A DNA stretch of 64,000 nt from Candidatus Binatia bacterium (GTDB taxonomy: Bacteria > Desulfobacterota > Binatia > Bin18). The notes below the pieces were generated by a model. It was not told the DNA's origin. It made no database searches and saw only the letters and a program-made list of their open reading frames with translations. Below, one piece after another: positions 4,307 to 9,312 of this stretch. The number at the start of each line of letters is the position of its first letter. The first letter of the stretch is position 1. Location of the stretch: the NCBI GenBank assembly GCA_022826945.1, contig JAJDTY010000007.1:132501-196500 (forward strand), read 5' to 3'. The translations under genes and the position numbers were made by a program.

Positions 4307-6205
4307 GTGCGACAAAAACTCTACGACTATCTCGCGGACCGGCCAGGCGGGGTAACCTCGACCGAGTTGCTCCACGAGATTTTCGTCTCAGGCGCGATTG
4401 CCCCCTTTCCTTCTCAACGTGATCCGGAACTGGGCGCCCGTCTCATCCATGCGGCCCTTGGTGCTGATCAGCACTGTTCCTACGATGCGAAAACGGACCG
4501 CTGGACGCTCACCCTCCATGCCGACCTCGATCGACCACTCCACGATATCCAGTTTGTCGTTCTTGACCTCGAAACAACCGGCCTCAAACCCGGTAAAGCG
4601 GCCATGACTGAAGTCGCCGCAATTCGAGTCAGCCACGGGAAGTTTGGCGAGGAGTTTCATACCCTACTCAATCCGGGCCGGCATGTTCCAGCCGGGATAA
4701 CCCGTTTGACCGGCATCACCGATGCCATGCTCAGAGACCAGCCCCGGATTGAAGATATCTTTCCTCAGTTGCAACGTTTTCTCGGCCAGGCAGTGATCGT
4801 TGCCCATAACGCCAGCTTTGACCTTGGCTTCCTCAACTTTGACGCGCACCGTCTCGTCGCTGCCCCTTTGCGTAACCTCTCCGTTTGCACCCTGAAGCTG
4901 GCCAGACGACTGCTATCCGGTATTCGGTCCCGTTCACTCGACTCGGTCGCCGCCCACCTTGGCGTCTCGTACCCGACCCAACATCGCGCCTTGGCCGATG
5001 CGCGGGTGACGGCGGAAGTCTTTTGTATTTTTCTGGAGCGACTCGCCCAACAAGGAGTCACCACGCTCGGCCAGCTAATCGAGTTTCAGCACAGCGCCCG
5101 CGATGGTCGCCGTTTTGAATGTTTTGTCCCCCGCCCGACTCTGGCAAATATTCCGGCAAGCCCCGGAGTATATCGGATGCTCGGCGCAGAGGGGAAGCTG
5201 CTCTACATCGGTAAGGCCAAGAATCTTCATCGTCGAGTCAACTCCTATTTCACCAATTCTTCGGGACATAGCGACAAGGTCCTCGACTTGGTCCGCCACG
5301 CACGCGACGTTGTCTACGAACAAACCGGCTCAGAGCTTGAGGCGTCTTTACGTGAGGCTAGTCTGATTCGCACCCTCAAACCGCCGTATAATCGACTTTC
5401 CAAGCACCTTCCCCGCGTCGCATTTCTCAAACTCAGCGTCAGGAATGCTTATCCCCGCCTGTCGGTCACGGCAAAACCGGGAAGTGATCGCGCCCTGTAT
5501 ATCGGTCCGTTCCGCAATCGCGACTTCGCCGAGCGAGCCCAACGACTCCTCGCTCGGCTTTTTGGTCTCAGAACCTGTCCAGGCAACCTCTCGCCAGCTC
5601 CCGAATCGTCGCCTTGCGTGAGCGGTCAAATTGGTGCCTGTACCGCACCGTGCGTAGGGTGGGTCTCACGCGAGGCATACCGGGAGCAAGTGCAGCGTTT
5701 CAACACAGCTCTCAATGGTGAAGTCTCAATACTGCGAGAAACATTACTAGTAAAACGTGACCGTCTTGCCGCGGATTTGCAATACGAAGGGGCCGCCCGC
5801 CTACAGCAGGATATCGAGTTGCTCGACCATATCCTCCATTTGCATCAGCGCTTTCATTGGATTGTGACGCGGGCGAATGCCTTGCTCTTATTGCCCAGCC
5901 GCCAAACTGAAACGGCCCAGGCCTATCTTGTCCTCAACGGCCGTCTGATCGAAAATCGCGCGGTCTCCAGTCTGGACGACCTGGAATATTTAGCGGCCCT
6001 CGCGGACGAACATTTTGATACAGATTGTAATGTCCCTTTGCGGCCGCACGAGATTGACGCCAGTGTGATTCTTTCCGCTTGGCTGCGGAACCCGGAGCAA
6101 GCACAGAGTGCTGTTTTTCCGATTGGTGCCCCGTCGACACTCAGCACTCAACTGGACGAGCTTCAAATAGCGCTGAGCGACCTCCAACGAATTGAGTGTG
6201 CATGA
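4307..6205 (+). CDS. DEDDh exonuclease fused to GIY-YIG (UvrC N-terminal-like) nuclease
   Basis: This 632-residue hybrid has a DnaQ-type 3'-5' exonuclease domain followed by a UvrC/Cho-like GIY-YIG domain. The exonuclease motif DLETTG begins at residue 87 and the late motif HRALADA lies near residue 227. The GIY-YIG signature runs from GVY (about residue 287) to LLYIGKAKN. A UVR-like helical segment (about 470-505) follows. Similar fusions are known from actinobacteria (the Rv2191 type) and other phyla and are presumed to act in DNA repair. It lacks the C-terminal RNase H-like and HhH regions of full UvrC. The GTG start has no ribosome site but sits 9 bases behind a promoter-like element. Confidence 0.88.
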   Translation: MRQKLYDYLADRPGGVTSTELLHEIFVSGAIAPFPSQRDPELGARLIHAALGADQHCSYDAKTDRWTLTLHADLDRPLHDIQFVVLDLETTGLKPGKAAMTEVAAIRVSHGKFGEEFHTLLNPGRHVPAGITRLTGITDAMLRDQPRIEDIFPQLQRFLGQAVIVAHNASFDLGFLNFDAHRLVAAPLRNLSVCTLKLARRLLSGIRSRSLDSVAAHLGVSYPTQHRALADARVTAEVFCIFLERLAQQGVTTLGQLIEFQHSARDGRRFECFVPRPTLANIPASPGVYRMLGAEGKLLYIGKAKNLHRRVNSYFTNSSGHSDKVLDLVRHARDVVYEQTGSELEASLREASLIRTLKPPYNRLSKHLPRVAFLKLSVRNAYPRLSVTAKPGSDRALYIGPFRNRDFAERAQRLLARLFGLRTCPGNLSPAPESSPCVSGQIGACTAPCVGWVSREAYREQVQRFNTALNGEVSILRETLLVKRDRLAADLQYEGAARLQQDIELLDHILHLHQRFHWIVTRANALLLLPSRQTETAQAYLVLNGRLIENRAVSSLDDLEYLAALADEHFDTDCNVPLRPHEIDASVILSAWLRNPEQAQSAVFPIGAPSTLSTQLDELQIALSDLQRIECA

Positions 6206-6238: not shown

Positions 6239-6267
6239 TTGCGACCCGCCGAACCGCCCCCTATAGT
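6239..6267 (+). promoter_or_regulatory. promoter of the PEP-mutase-like operon
   Basis: TTGCGA (6239-6244) and TATAGT (6262-6267) are 17 bases apart. The ATG at 6277 follows the -10 element by 9 bases and has no Shine-Dalgarno sequence, so the message would be leaderless. This favours the ATG at 6277 over the in-frame TTG at 6268, which would lie upstream of the transcription start. Confidence 0.55.
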
Positions 6268-6276
6268 TTGCCCACC

Positions 6277-7947
6277 ATGACAGCAACGGCACGCCTGCAG
6301 GAATTACTCAAGCAGCCCGGACCAGCCTTAGTTCTAGGGGCCCACGACGCCCTGTCTGCCCGACTGGCCCAGGAGGCCGGATTTGATGCCATCTGGGCCA
6401 GCGGTTTTGGCATCTCGGCCACCAATGCCATGCCGGACGCTAATATACTCACAATGAGCGAGACTTTGGAGGCGGTACGGCGGATGAGCGCCGCAGTGAG
6501 CATTCCGGTGATTGCCGACTGTGATAACGGCTTTGGCAACGCCATTAACGTCATGCGCACGGTGACTGAGTACGAGCATGCTGGGGCAGCCGGCATTTGT
6601 ATTGAAGACAATATCTTTCCCAAACGGTGTAGCTTTTACGCCGGAGTCCAACGCGAACTCGTCCCGATTGACGAGCACGCCCGGAAAATCCAGGCTGCGA
6701 CGGCCGCACGGCAGAATGCCGACTTTGTCATCGTTGCTCGCACAGAGGCTTTTATCGCTGGCTGGGGGAAAAATGAGGCCCTGCATCGAGCCCGCGCTTA
6801 TGTTGAGGCAGGTGCTGATGCCATCCTCATCCATTCCAAAGCGGCAACGTTTGACGAAGAGCTGAGAGATTTTGCGGCGAGCTGGGACATGTCCTGTCCG
6901 CTCGTATCCGTACCAACGACCTATGCCGATATTACTGCTCACGACCTGGCCGCCGCCGGTTTTCAGCTCGTTATTTTTGCCAACCAGACCCTGCGCGCCG
7001 CCGTCACCGGGATGCGAAACGCACTGACGACTCTCAAACGGGAAGGCCGACCGGCAGCGGTTGACGAGCAGATTGTGACATTACCTGAAATCTACGACCT
7101 CGTTGGTGTTTCGGACCTTCAGGCCAACGAAAAGAAATTTCTCGTCCCCGGCGGCCATGAAGTGACCGCGATTATTATTGCGGCCGGCTTTGAGGAAGAC
7201 CTCTTACCCCTGATTGAGGACCGCCCAAAGGCCATGCTTGAAATTAGGGGCAAGACCATTCTGGAGCGACAGATTCAGGTACTGAACGAGTGTGGGGTCA
7301 AAGATATTGTCGTTGTCCGAGGCTATCATAAAGAGCAGATCAATCTGCCGAATATCCGTTATTATGACAACGACCGCTTCCGTGAGACTGGTGAGCTCGC
7401 CTCCCTCTTTCTGGCCGAGGCGGAGATGACGGACCGTTTTCTTTTTCTGTATTCGGACATTCTTCTCGATCCTTCCATTCTCGAAAAATTGCTCAAGTCT
7501 CAAGCTGAGATCAGCATCGTGGTTGACCGTGCTTGGAACGATCACGAACCTGGACAGGCAGAGGTACGGAGGAAGAAGCCGGACCTAGTGGTCACCCATC
7601 GACCGCCCAAGACGGGCTATCGCTACCTCCCAACCGCCGAGACCACGACGCTGACGCAGATAGGCCAGGAGATTATGCCGCAGGATGCCGATGGTGAATT
7701 TATTGGTCTCGCCATGTTCTCCGCCTCGGGAGCACACGTCTTGCGGACGACCTATCAGGAGCTTCAGACATGTAATGCGGCACATCGCTTCCATGAGGCA
7801 AGCACCCTGGAAACCGCAGCCTTCACCGACATGCTCCAAGAGCTCATTAACCGCAAACACGACATCGCCTGTGTGGACATTTATAAGGGTTGGCTTGAAA
7901 TCGACACCTTCGAAGATTACCGACGTGCCTGGGCAAAAATCCACTAG
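6277..7947 (+). CDS. PEP mutase/isocitrate lyase-family domain fused to a nucleotidyltransferase-like domain
   Basis: Residues 1 to about 280 form a PEP mutase/isocitrate-lyase superfamily TIM barrel: WASGFGISATN near residue 40, the metal-site loop ADCDNGFGN near 85, and EDNIFPKRCSF at 110-120. PEP mutases that make phosphonopyruvate normally carry EDK-x5-NS at the last site. Here it reads EDN-x5-CS, and KRC recalls the catalytic Cys of C-C lyases such as PrpB. From about residue 290 a LicC-like sugar/choline nucleotidyltransferase domain follows. It keeps RPKAMLEI, but the Gly-x-Gly-Thr-Arg loop is replaced by AAGFEEDLLPL. A phosphonate-cytidylylating enzyme is the nearest known architecture, but altered motifs make the reaction uncertain. 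It probably heads an operon with the next two genes. Confidence 0.8.
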   Translation: MTATARLQELLKQPGPALVLGAHDALSARLAQEAGFDAIWASGFGISATNAMPDANILTMSETLEAVRRMSAAVSIPVIADCDNGFGNAINVMRTVTEYEHAGAAGICIEDNIFPKRCSFYAGVQRELVPIDEHARKIQAATAARQNADFVIVARTEAFIAGWGKNEALHRARAYVEAGADAILIHSKAATFDEELRDFAASWDMSCPLVSVPTTYADITAHDLAAAGFQLVIFANQTLRAAVTGMRNALTTLKREGRPAAVDEQIVTLPEIYDLVGVSDLQANEKKFLVPGGHEVTAIIIAAGFEEDLLPLIEDRPKAMLEIRGKTILERQIQVLNECGVKDIVVVRGYHKEQINLPNIRYYDNDRFRETGELASLFLAEAEMTDRFLFLYSDILLDPSILEKLLKSQAEISIVVDRAWNDHEPGQAEVRRKKPDLVVTHRPPKTGYRYLPTAETTTLTQIGQEIMPQDADGEFIGLAMFSASGAHVLRTTYQELQTCNAAHRFHEASTLETAAFTDMLQELINRKHDIACVDIYKGWLEIDTFEDYRRAWAKIH

Positions 7948-8007
7948 CTCCGAGATGGCTGGTACGAGCATCCCAGGCTTGCTTCACAGTCTTGCGTGGA
8001 GTGACCT

Positions 8008-8973
8008 ATGGACTTTCAAAATATTGACACGCTTATCAAAAATGAGTACGCGTTTTTCTTGCGCGAGCAGAACAATTGGAGCCTTACCGCCGGCCCGCAG
8101 GACCTCGAGCTTGTTGCCCACGCGCTACGCGTCCTCTTGCACGCACGAAGCACTCCAGATTTCCTGGACGACTATTGTGCGCTCGTGGCCTGTCAGAATG
8201 GGGACGGCGGCTGGAGTCCTCTCTCTTCCGATACCGAGAGTACCGTTTGGGTGTCGGCGTTCTGCGGCCTCATGCTTATTCGCGGCAACCAGTTTCTTCT
8301 ACATGCGCAACTGACCCAGTCGGTCCAGCAGGCCATCGACTATTTTCTCGATACCCAACACCAGGACGGTCGGTGGGTTGACCCGGCCTGGGCCGACCTG
8401 GATACGACCAGCCATCCAGTCAGTTTTTTTAATGTAGTCATAGCCCTGGGTGAAACCCACAGGCAGCAAGAGGTTCGGCACGCCTGGCAGCAGGGCATGC
8501 GTTTTATCATCGACAACCAGAGCCCAGATGGCGGCTGGTATGATGATGAATTTCATCCGTCCGGCGTAGAGATTACTGCCCATTTAATCCAAGATGCACT
8601 GGTCGCCGACCTCGTTCTTGATCAACAGGTTAGCGGGGTTCGCGAGGCGTGCGCCAAAGGGGCCGCCCGGTTGTGTGACTGGCAGGCCCGATCCGGCTCG
8701 TGGGACGAAGAGAACGTTGACCACACCATGGACTGTACGCGATCGCTCATGCTGGTGACTCATATTCTGCAAGACTCCCACAAGCGTGAGACTATTCTGC
8801 GTGGCCTGAGTTGGATTCTGGACAATAAGAACGACCGCGGCTGGGGCGACTTTCCAGGCATGGAGACAAATCTGGAACGCACCTGCGATGGCATCGATAC
8901 CCTGCTGAAATATCAAGCCTATAGCAACAGCGGCACGCACGAGGTGGTCAAGCTCTGGGGGTATCTGCCCTAG
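8008..8973 (+). CDS. alpha/alpha-toroid QW-repeat protein (prenyltransferase/squalene cyclase-like)
   Basis: This 321-residue soluble protein has repeated QW-type motifs: QNGDGGW (about residue 64), QDGRW (about 120), SPDGGW (about 172), RSGSW (about 230) and NDRGWGD (about 275). These mark the prenyltransferase/squalene oxidase alpha-barrel fold. The DxDD acid motif of class II terpene cyclases is not visible, and no membrane insertion segment or signal peptide is seen. It could be a non-canonical cyclase or a binding or processing protein. It starts 60 bases after the PEP-mutase-like gene, behind a GGAG ribosome site, and is followed after 15 bases by a Rieske protein, so the three are very likely one operon. 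Confidence 0.75.
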   Translation: MDFQNIDTLIKNEYAFFLREQNNWSLTAGPQDLELVAHALRVLLHARSTPDFLDDYCALVACQNGDGGWSPLSSDTESTVWVSAFCGLMLIRGNQFLLHAQLTQSVQQAIDYFLDTQHQDGRWVDPAWADLDTTSHPVSFFNVVIALGETHRQQEVRHAWQQGMRFIIDNQSPDGGWYDDEFHPSGVEITAHLIQDALVADLVLDQQVSGVREACAKGAARLCDWQARSGSWDEENVDHTMDCTRSLMLVTHILQDSHKRETILRGLSWILDNKNDRGWGDFPGMETNLERTCDGIDTLLKYQAYSNSGTHEVVKLWGYLP

Positions 8974-8988
8974 AATTACGCCCGATTT

Positions 8989-9312
8989 ATGCCGTCTCAC
9001 GCTCCGGCAAAAAGCGGCTGGCAGGCAGTCTGCCAAGTCGACGAACTTCCCCCAGGGGAACGGAAGCTCGTCACAGTCGACGGCGTGGAGATTGCCCTTT
9101 TCAATATCGACGGAGCAGTCTTTGCTATCAACAATCGCTGTCCTCACCGAAAAGGCCCCTTGATTCGCGGCTATACAGACAGTGAGGGCGGCATCAAATG
9201 TCCGATGCACGGCTGGCGATTTGATCTCCGGACTGGACAGAGTCGACGGCCAGCCCAGGCCACGACGTACCGGACAAAAATCGAGGCTGGGACTGTTTGC
9301 CTGATGCTCTAG
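8989..9312 (+). CDS. small Rieske [2Fe-2S] ferredoxin-like protein
   Basis: This 107-residue protein consists of little more than one Rieske domain. The cluster ligands are in CPHRKGPL (about residues 46-53) and CPMHGWRF (about 67-74), the C-x-H...C-x2-H arrangement. It resembles NirD or ferredoxin components of Rieske oxygenase systems. There is no signal peptide or membrane anchor, so it would act in the cytoplasm as an electron carrier. No oxygenase alpha subunit or reductase lies nearby. The 15-base gap to the QW-repeat gene indicates co-transcription, which suggests a redox step in the same unknown pathway. Confidence 0.85.
   Translation: MPSHAPAKSGWQAVCQVDELPPGERKLVTVDGVEIALFNIDGAVFAINNRCPHRKGPLIRGYTDSEGGIKCPMHGWRFDLRTGQSRRPAQATTYRTKIEAGTVCLML

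Follow-up and report, generated by a model that had tools for sequence, protein, structure and literature searches.

In a 64,000-nucleotide stretch of the genome of Candidatus Binatia bacterium (assembly GCA_022826945.1, contig JAJDTY010000007.1, positions 132,501 to 196,500; hereafter the window), three tightly spaced genes at positions 6277-9312 encode a phosphoenolpyruvate (PEP) mutase domain fused to a nucleotidyltransferase-like domain (FUS), a toroid-type protein (TOR), and a small Rieske protein (RIE). We propose that FUS is probably the PEP mutase (Ppm) of an aminoethylphosphonate (AEP) pathway, the other genes of which lie elsewhere in the same genome, in a hopanoid locus. This arrangement suggests an AEP-modified hopanoid or other membrane lipid, which would be an undescribed phosphonate-bearing lipid. 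The source genome (G000), that of an uncultured soil bacterium, is a 4.7 Mb draft, 90% complete, that carries the cassette on contig C83 and the other AEP genes on contig C84. An earlier, sequence-only reading of the window had suggested that the three genes could form a small undescribed biosynthetic operon; with these genes on C84, the trio is not a self-contained operon. The reading had also called the cassette unfamiliar; PEP mutase-nucleotidyltransferase fusions as such are well known (PMC6697681). The cassette comprises the following features, all on the forward strand:

6277..7947 (+): FUS, 556 aa from ATG, with a PEP mutase domain at ~aa 1-290 and a nucleotidyltransferase-like domain at ~aa 295-556
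6604..6633 (+): EDNIFPKRCS, at the place of the PEP mutase motif EDKxxxxxNS in the alignment with 1M1B, 5UNC, 2DUA, and 33 homologues
7180..7230 (+): AAGFEEDLLPLIEDRPK, the fused domain's nucleotide-binding signature in degenerate form, with GxGxR lost and PK kept
8008..8973 (+): TOR, 321 aa, a class II cyclase-like protein made up of one toroid-type domain, with QW repeats
8395..8409 (+): DLDTT (DxDTT), aa 130-134 of TOR, aligning with DxDD (D374) of squalene-hopene cyclase (SHC)
8989..9312 (+): RIE, 107 aa, a small Rieske [2Fe-2S] ferredoxin
9139-9147 and 9199-9210 (+): cluster ligands of RIE, CPH (aa 51-53) and CPMH (aa 71-74), in the arrangement CxH ... CxxH

FUS matches both PEP_mutase PF13714 (206 bits, cut-off 31.5) and NTP_transf_3 PF12804 (48.5 bits, cut-off 27) within one protein, and among solved structures it scores 275 bits with 5unc and 249 bits with 2dua. 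It keeps D54 (equivalent to Asp58 of the Mytilus enzyme), D81, D83, E110, K116, R155, and H186, residues with established roles in the PEP mutase family. In a phylogenetic tree, FUS-type proteins, EDK-type PEP mutases, and phosphonopyruvate hydrolase (PPH) form one clade apart from the C-C lyases (support 100/100), in which the EDK-type proteins are a subclade (98/91). A further proposal, that the EDN group is merely a grade from which the EDK mutases arose, was dropped as unsupported (one-clade approximately unbiased test, p 0.16).

The assignment of FUS draws further support from the genes that accompany it. In the source genome, a stretch of C84 (19645 to ~22530) groups the split thiamine pyrophosphate (TPP) enzyme Ppd-N/Ppd-C, an AEP transaminase, and PntC, with no PEP mutase among them; TIGR03301 PhnW-AepZ matches the aminotransferase at 358 bits (cut-off 360.8), and the stand-alone PntC has an intact AAGVGKR...PK. 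Among the other PF13714 paralogues of this genome that we examined, EDQ..PKRCG occurs in two, EDQDVPRRCG (as aligned) in a third, and no readable motif in a fourth. A pattern search of the genome found no credible EDKxxxxxNS; its two matches were rejected, one containing an in-frame stop and the other being antisense to an aldehyde dehydrogenase gene. With the readable paralogues being of the lyase-type EDQ form, FUS is thus the only PEP mutase candidate found in this 90% complete genome, in which the genes leading from AEP to its cytidine monophosphate (CMP) ester, CMP-AEP, form an otherwise full set. With FUS as the presumed Ppm, one genome therefore holds Ppm, Ppd, AEP transaminase, and PntC, distributed over the window and G000:C84.

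The same genes accompany FUS elsewhere. A single scan of the genome collection yielded 38 loci, and in other genomes the genes 3' of FUS-type genes encode the split TPP enzyme, an aminotransferase of class V, and another nucleotidyltransferase. The full set (Ppd, AEP transaminase, and PntC) stands beside FUS in L013, L022, L080 (with other genes between), L081, and L082, and partial sets are found in L016, L019, and L020 (Ppd and PntC), in L011, L012, and L024 (Ppd), and in L035 (Ppd and aminotransferase). In a class-wide census (148 genomes), FUS occurs in 33 (partly masked in G004 and in two pieces in G005) and TOR in 18. The TIGR03301 scores of these genomes separate into an upper group of 301-476 bits and a lower one of at most 225 bits, and we counted the upper group as AEP transaminase present. 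On this count, the transaminase occurs in 31 of the 33 FUS genomes as compared to 7 of the 115 others (Fisher's test, p = 8e-23), and the two FUS genomes that lack it are 70% and 88% complete. As a side observation, L013 (CAMBZJ010000034.1), which is titled a Klebsiella pneumoniae metagenome-assembled genome, matches contig C34 of the Binatota genome G031 at 100% over the compared AEP genes and appears to be mislabeled.

Four points weigh against this assignment of FUS. The motif EDKxxxxxNS is absent from it; its score with TIGR02320 (274.1 bits) is below the cut-off of 319.55; the Cys at position 118, which aligns with Asn122 of the Mytilus PEP mutase, is typical of C-C lyases; and related Binatota genomes share arrangements by descent, so that their counts are not independent. 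PPH (2DUA) and the Mytilus PEP mutase (1M1B) share with FUS the scaffold and most active-site residues, and differ in having Thr or Asn at the place of Cys118 and Lys at the place of Asn112. If the assignment is right, the AEP pathway would be split over two loci, with FUS on C83 and the remainder on C84. The N-terminal domain of FUS would convert PEP to phosphonopyruvate in a variant active site, with Cys for Asn122, after which the Ppd pair, the AEP transaminase, and PntC would, judging from their gene families, yield phosphonoacetaldehyde, AEP, and CMP-AEP. The CMP-AEP would then be used for tailoring of the cell envelope.

As the acceptor of AEP we tentatively favor a hopanoid or a hopanoid-associated lipid, because the AEP genes on C84 lie between hpnN and hpnK-hpnI-hpnJ. 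HpnK (318 bits, cut-off 233), HpnI (370, cut-off 310), and HpnJ (729, cut-off 578) all score above their curated cut-offs, and the HpnN-type RND transporter (TIGR03480, 604 bits) scores below its cut-off of 752; an MlaA gene is also found around the AEP genes, and the genome encodes a full SHC (670 bits). HpnI, HpnK, and HpnJ make bacteriohopanetetrol cyclitol ether, and HpnN carries hopanoids to the outer membrane (PMC12583986). The proximity is not restricted to the source genome: 18 genomes have HpnJ no more than 19 kb from FUS or the AEP transaminase, among them the seven of the source genus, where the distance is 2.9-3.5 kb. In family f8, HpnJ is divergent from FUS and 203-236 bp away in five genomes (1.1 kb in a sixth), in G019, G231, and G021 it lies 8-19 kb from the AEP transaminase, and in L013 and L082 a YdjC/HpnK homologue comes after PntC. 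Such closeness on the chromosome counts for more than the mere presence of HpnJ, which is only modestly associated with FUS (27 of 33 FUS genomes versus 55 of 115 others, p 4e-4). A phylum-wide sample of 118 genomes contained FUS in 6, HpnJ in 11, and both in five, numbers too small for more.

A similar association exists in distant bacteria. In Roseomonas marmotae and Mycetohabitans endofungorum, AEP genes occur inside or next to hpn clusters together with HpnL and a CDP-alcohol phosphotransferase. These aepX-aepY clusters (L087, L088, and L090) resemble the Binatota system in their degenerate nucleotidyltransferase fusion, separate PntC, AEP transaminase, and adjoining hopanoid genes, whereas they differ from it in the canonical EDKxFPKTNS, in HpnL and the CDP-alcohol phosphotransferase, and in the lack of annotated toroid or Rieske neighbors. 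The Roseomonas 'hybrid' clusters have been noted before (PMC8776678), in a survey of Acetobacteraceae that found a PEP mutase beside a hopene cyclase and proposed an undiscovered terpene-phosphonate. Among the papers on hopanoids and phosphonate that we examined, that survey alone makes such a proposal, and a literature search found none that links hopanoids with phosphonopyruvate.

The hopanoid as acceptor has to be weighed against several observations: 55 of the 82 class genomes with HpnJ lack FUS, FUS and the hpn genes of the source genome are on different contigs, and we identified no transferase in that genome that would join CMP-AEP to a hopanoid. In addition, G021 (L081, contig C3) has an AEP operon with a CDP-alcohol phosphotransferase, with HpnJ 18 kb off, and has no detectable SHC. 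This operon, together with the view that most Ppm clusters serve glycans and phosphonolipids (PMC6697681), gives somewhat less than an even chance to the alternative that AEP is placed on an ordinary glycan or glycerophospholipid and that the hopanoid neighborhood is a mere clustering of outer-membrane genes. Such clustering would not by itself account for neighbors that are hopanoid-specific head-group and transport genes, nor for the recurrence of the link, beside full hpn clusters, in Roseomonas and Mycetohabitans. It is conceivable, if doubtful as a whole, that Binatota and, separately, Roseomonas and Burkholderiaceae make AEP-hopanoids as an undescribed class of phosphonolipids, with an overlooked Cys-type PEP mutase making the C-P bond and with TOR and RIE modifying the isoprenoid part in family f1, the Binatota family of the source genome. 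The occurrence of AEP genes amid hopanoid genes in three distant lineages leads to a testable prediction, namely a phosphonate-bearing triterpenoid lipid of interest as a biomarker, and also shows where such a lipid should be sought in extracts.

We next consider TOR and RIE, which follow FUS co-directionally after gaps of 60 bp (FUS-TOR) and 15 bp (TOR-RIE). The sequence-only reading of these three as genuine, tightly spaced genes was borne out by their open reading frames, Pfam matches, and conserved order, and by purifying selection on all three (nonsynonymous divergence, dN, 0.04-0.10 versus synonymous divergence, dS, 0.5-0.7 among same-genus orthologues). The order FUS-TOR-RIE was found in every f1 contig long enough to show the region, and across the class the distance from TOR to FUS is at most 3 kb in 17 of the 18 TOR genomes, the two being immediate neighbors in 16. 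In the sole exception, G008 (L060), TOR stands next to a gyrB/parE-like gene on a short contig that lacks FUS. The co-occurrence of TOR with FUS has a p of 1e-10 by genome counts, in which related genomes are not independent. Outside f1, TOR adjoins FUS in genus g23 (family f5), separates FUS from Ppd in L011-L013, and in G045 (genus g27, L057) stands 2.7 kb from FUS and is 59% identical; the TOR proteins of L011 and L012, which were outside the profile-building set, match the TOR profile at E 1e-26 to 1e-28. In G045, a glycosyl hydrolase family 1 gene (L057:6032-7282) occupies the space between FUS and TOR. RIE was seen beside FUS in f1 only, and in other families and phyla FUS genes mostly lack both TOR and RIE. 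The trio is therefore a lineage-specific accessory arrangement, of which only the fusion is widespread. The earlier reading would have regarded the cassette as coincidental if the fusion occurred without the other two genes in most genomes; the outcome is mixed, in that most other lineages do have the fusion without them, but coincidence is rejected because the trio is invariant in f1 and TOR is next to or near FUS in 17 of 18 TOR genomes.

TOR has QW repeats and matches SQHop_cyclase_C PF13243 at 33.6 bits (cut-off 26.1), and its profile matches SHC at E 1.8e-13. The canonical DxDD is absent, as the earlier reading had noted, but the acid motif is not simply missing, since two local alignments, weak in score but concordant, place the variant DLDTT at its position. 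Drimenol synthases use DxDTT as a functional form of DxDD (PMC9128629). All aligned f1 sequences and L057 carry DxDTT unchanged, and L011-L013 lack it, so that any cyclase activity cannot be general to all TOR relatives. As compared by sequence, TOR resembles SHC and the DxDTT class II cyclases, such as drimenol and drimenyl diphosphate synthases, in its QW repeats (as in SHC) and in DxDTT aligning on DxDD, and differs from them in being one 321-aa domain with very weak overall similarity (33.6 bits). The guess that TOR has to do with terpenoids gains from DxDTT and from the hopanoid link, and TOR most likely binds or cyclises an isoprenoid, a weak assignment.

RIE matches Rieske PF00355 at 78.6 bits, above the gathering score, and its nearest solved relatives are dioxygenase ferredoxins. 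It is similar in size and in its CxH-x17-CxxH to the Rieske ferredoxins of ring-hydroxylating dioxygenases (HcaC and the biphenyl dioxygenase ferredoxin), and differs from them in scoring below the curated HcaC cut-off and in having no oxygenase gene in its immediate neighborhood. RIE might serve as a ferredoxin for an oxygenase encoded elsewhere, a weak suggestion, and an oxidative step by RIE is a guess. In Polyangiaceae, a plant-type 2Fe-2S (Fer2) ferredoxin gene lies directly 5' of the FUS homologue (L016:7424-7828 and L017:7430-7744), a possible parallel to RIE; L016 belongs to Minicystis rosea DSM 24000. Within the proposed pathway, TOR may be a lineage-specific accessory that acts on an isoprenoid. 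It is unlikely, in our view, that TOR and RIE are instead a separate small pathway (e.g. one in which a short isoprenoid is cyclised and oxidized) that shares an operon with FUS by chance in one family. The confinement of the RIE-FUS pairing to f1, the many FUS genes without either neighbor, and the retention of DxDTT agree with such a pathway, but TOR being near FUS also in g23 and G045, and between FUS and Ppd in L011-L013, does not.

The C-terminal domain of FUS had been read, together with the PEP mutase domain, as pointing to phosphonate activation. The phosphonate context stands, with Ppd, AEP transaminase, and PntC as described, whereas activation by the fused domain itself is put in doubt. 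The nucleotidyltransferase consensus is GXG(T/S)RX4-8PK, and PntC R15A keeps less than 10% activity (PMC6697681). The fused domain deviates from this consensus (AAGFEEDLLPLIEDRPK), and GxG(T/S)R is absent from all aligned FUS homologues; the Roseomonas and Mycetohabitans fusions, which are of the EDK type, have lost it as well and are accompanied by a separate intact PntC. Because of the lost GxGxR, the effect of R15A in PntC, and the separate intact PntC, we infer that the fused domain is non-catalytic or altered. It has lost the pyrophosphate-binding GxGxR, probably performs no catalysis, and may scaffold or channel. That it is active on a second phosphonate, with PntC activating AEP, seems improbable: in its favor, the fusions throughout retain PK, the Asp residues that bind metal, and W-x-E-[IV]-D-[TS]-[FL]-x-D-Y, but the loss just described argues against it. 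In published clusters for phosphonyl tailoring, PEP mutase-PF12804 fusions likewise coexist with a separate PntC (PMC6697681); they are alike in the MobA-like NTP transferase fusion, Ppd, AEP transaminase, and stand-alone PntC, and FUS differs from them in EDNxFPKRCS for EDKxxxxxNS, in the two-locus pathway in f1, and in its toroid and Rieske neighbors.

Around the cassette, one further gene has a fixed position in f1:

4307..6205 (+): DEDDh exonuclease/GIY-YIG (UvrC-like part) fusion gene, the fixed 5' neighbor of FUS in family f1

This gene is 63-92% identical at the equivalent place in L002-L007, L009, and L025, and probably has no role in the pathway. It ends 71 bp before the start of FUS, with which it is co-directional, and the sequence before FUS (6239-6267) has a 9/12 match to sigma-70 that is at chance level (2 found versus 1.8 expected); the single promoter assumed for the trio is thus not substantiated. 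On the 3' side, the cassette is met by a convergent CusA-type gene.

The reading that FUS is a C-C lyase or hydrolase akin to isocitrate lyase or PPH, with the TPP enzyme and aminotransferase acting on a non-phosphonate 2-oxoacid, can draw on Cys118 and Thr156, which match lyases (PKRC, ARTD/E) and not PEP mutase, and on a PPH model score of 273.8 bits that is close to the 274.1 bits of the PEP mutase model, but we consider it improbable given that the tree sets FUS away from the EDQ-type lyases, that FUS has PKRCSF instead of PKRCG (K[KR]CGH motif) with only the Cys common to both, that the neighboring genes score as AEP transaminase and PntC-like cytidylyltransferase and fit a phosphonate and not a carboxylic product, and that the Ppd-type N and C domains reach up to 326 bits when joined in G005. 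FUS as a PEP mutase would belong to a broad group: its close homologues share ED[NS]-x-FPK[RK]CS, and those of the ED[NS] type come from Binatota, Myxococcota, Planctomycetota, Acidobacteriota, Omnitrophota, and Actinomycetota, the exceptions among close homologues being two Amycolatopsis proteins (L034 and L037), both of the EDK type. The usual EDKxxxxxNS filter misses FUS because it reads EDNxFPKRCS, and the published Ppm inventory retained EDKxxxxxNS proteins only and dropped 22 fused ones without the motif (PMC6697681). If FUS works as a mutase, a census of phosphonate producers by EDKxxxxxNS therefore misses a family in Binatota, Myxococcota, Planctomycetota, Acidobacteriota, and others. 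Separately, we observed EDN..PK[RK]CS in PEP mutase-like proteins that stand alone, from Streptomyces and Phycisphaerales (L030 and L033, also L029 and L031), with aminotransferase I/II, ATP-grasp, and MFS genes as neighbors in L033 and an ATP-grasp gene in L030, so that small natural-product clusters are possible.

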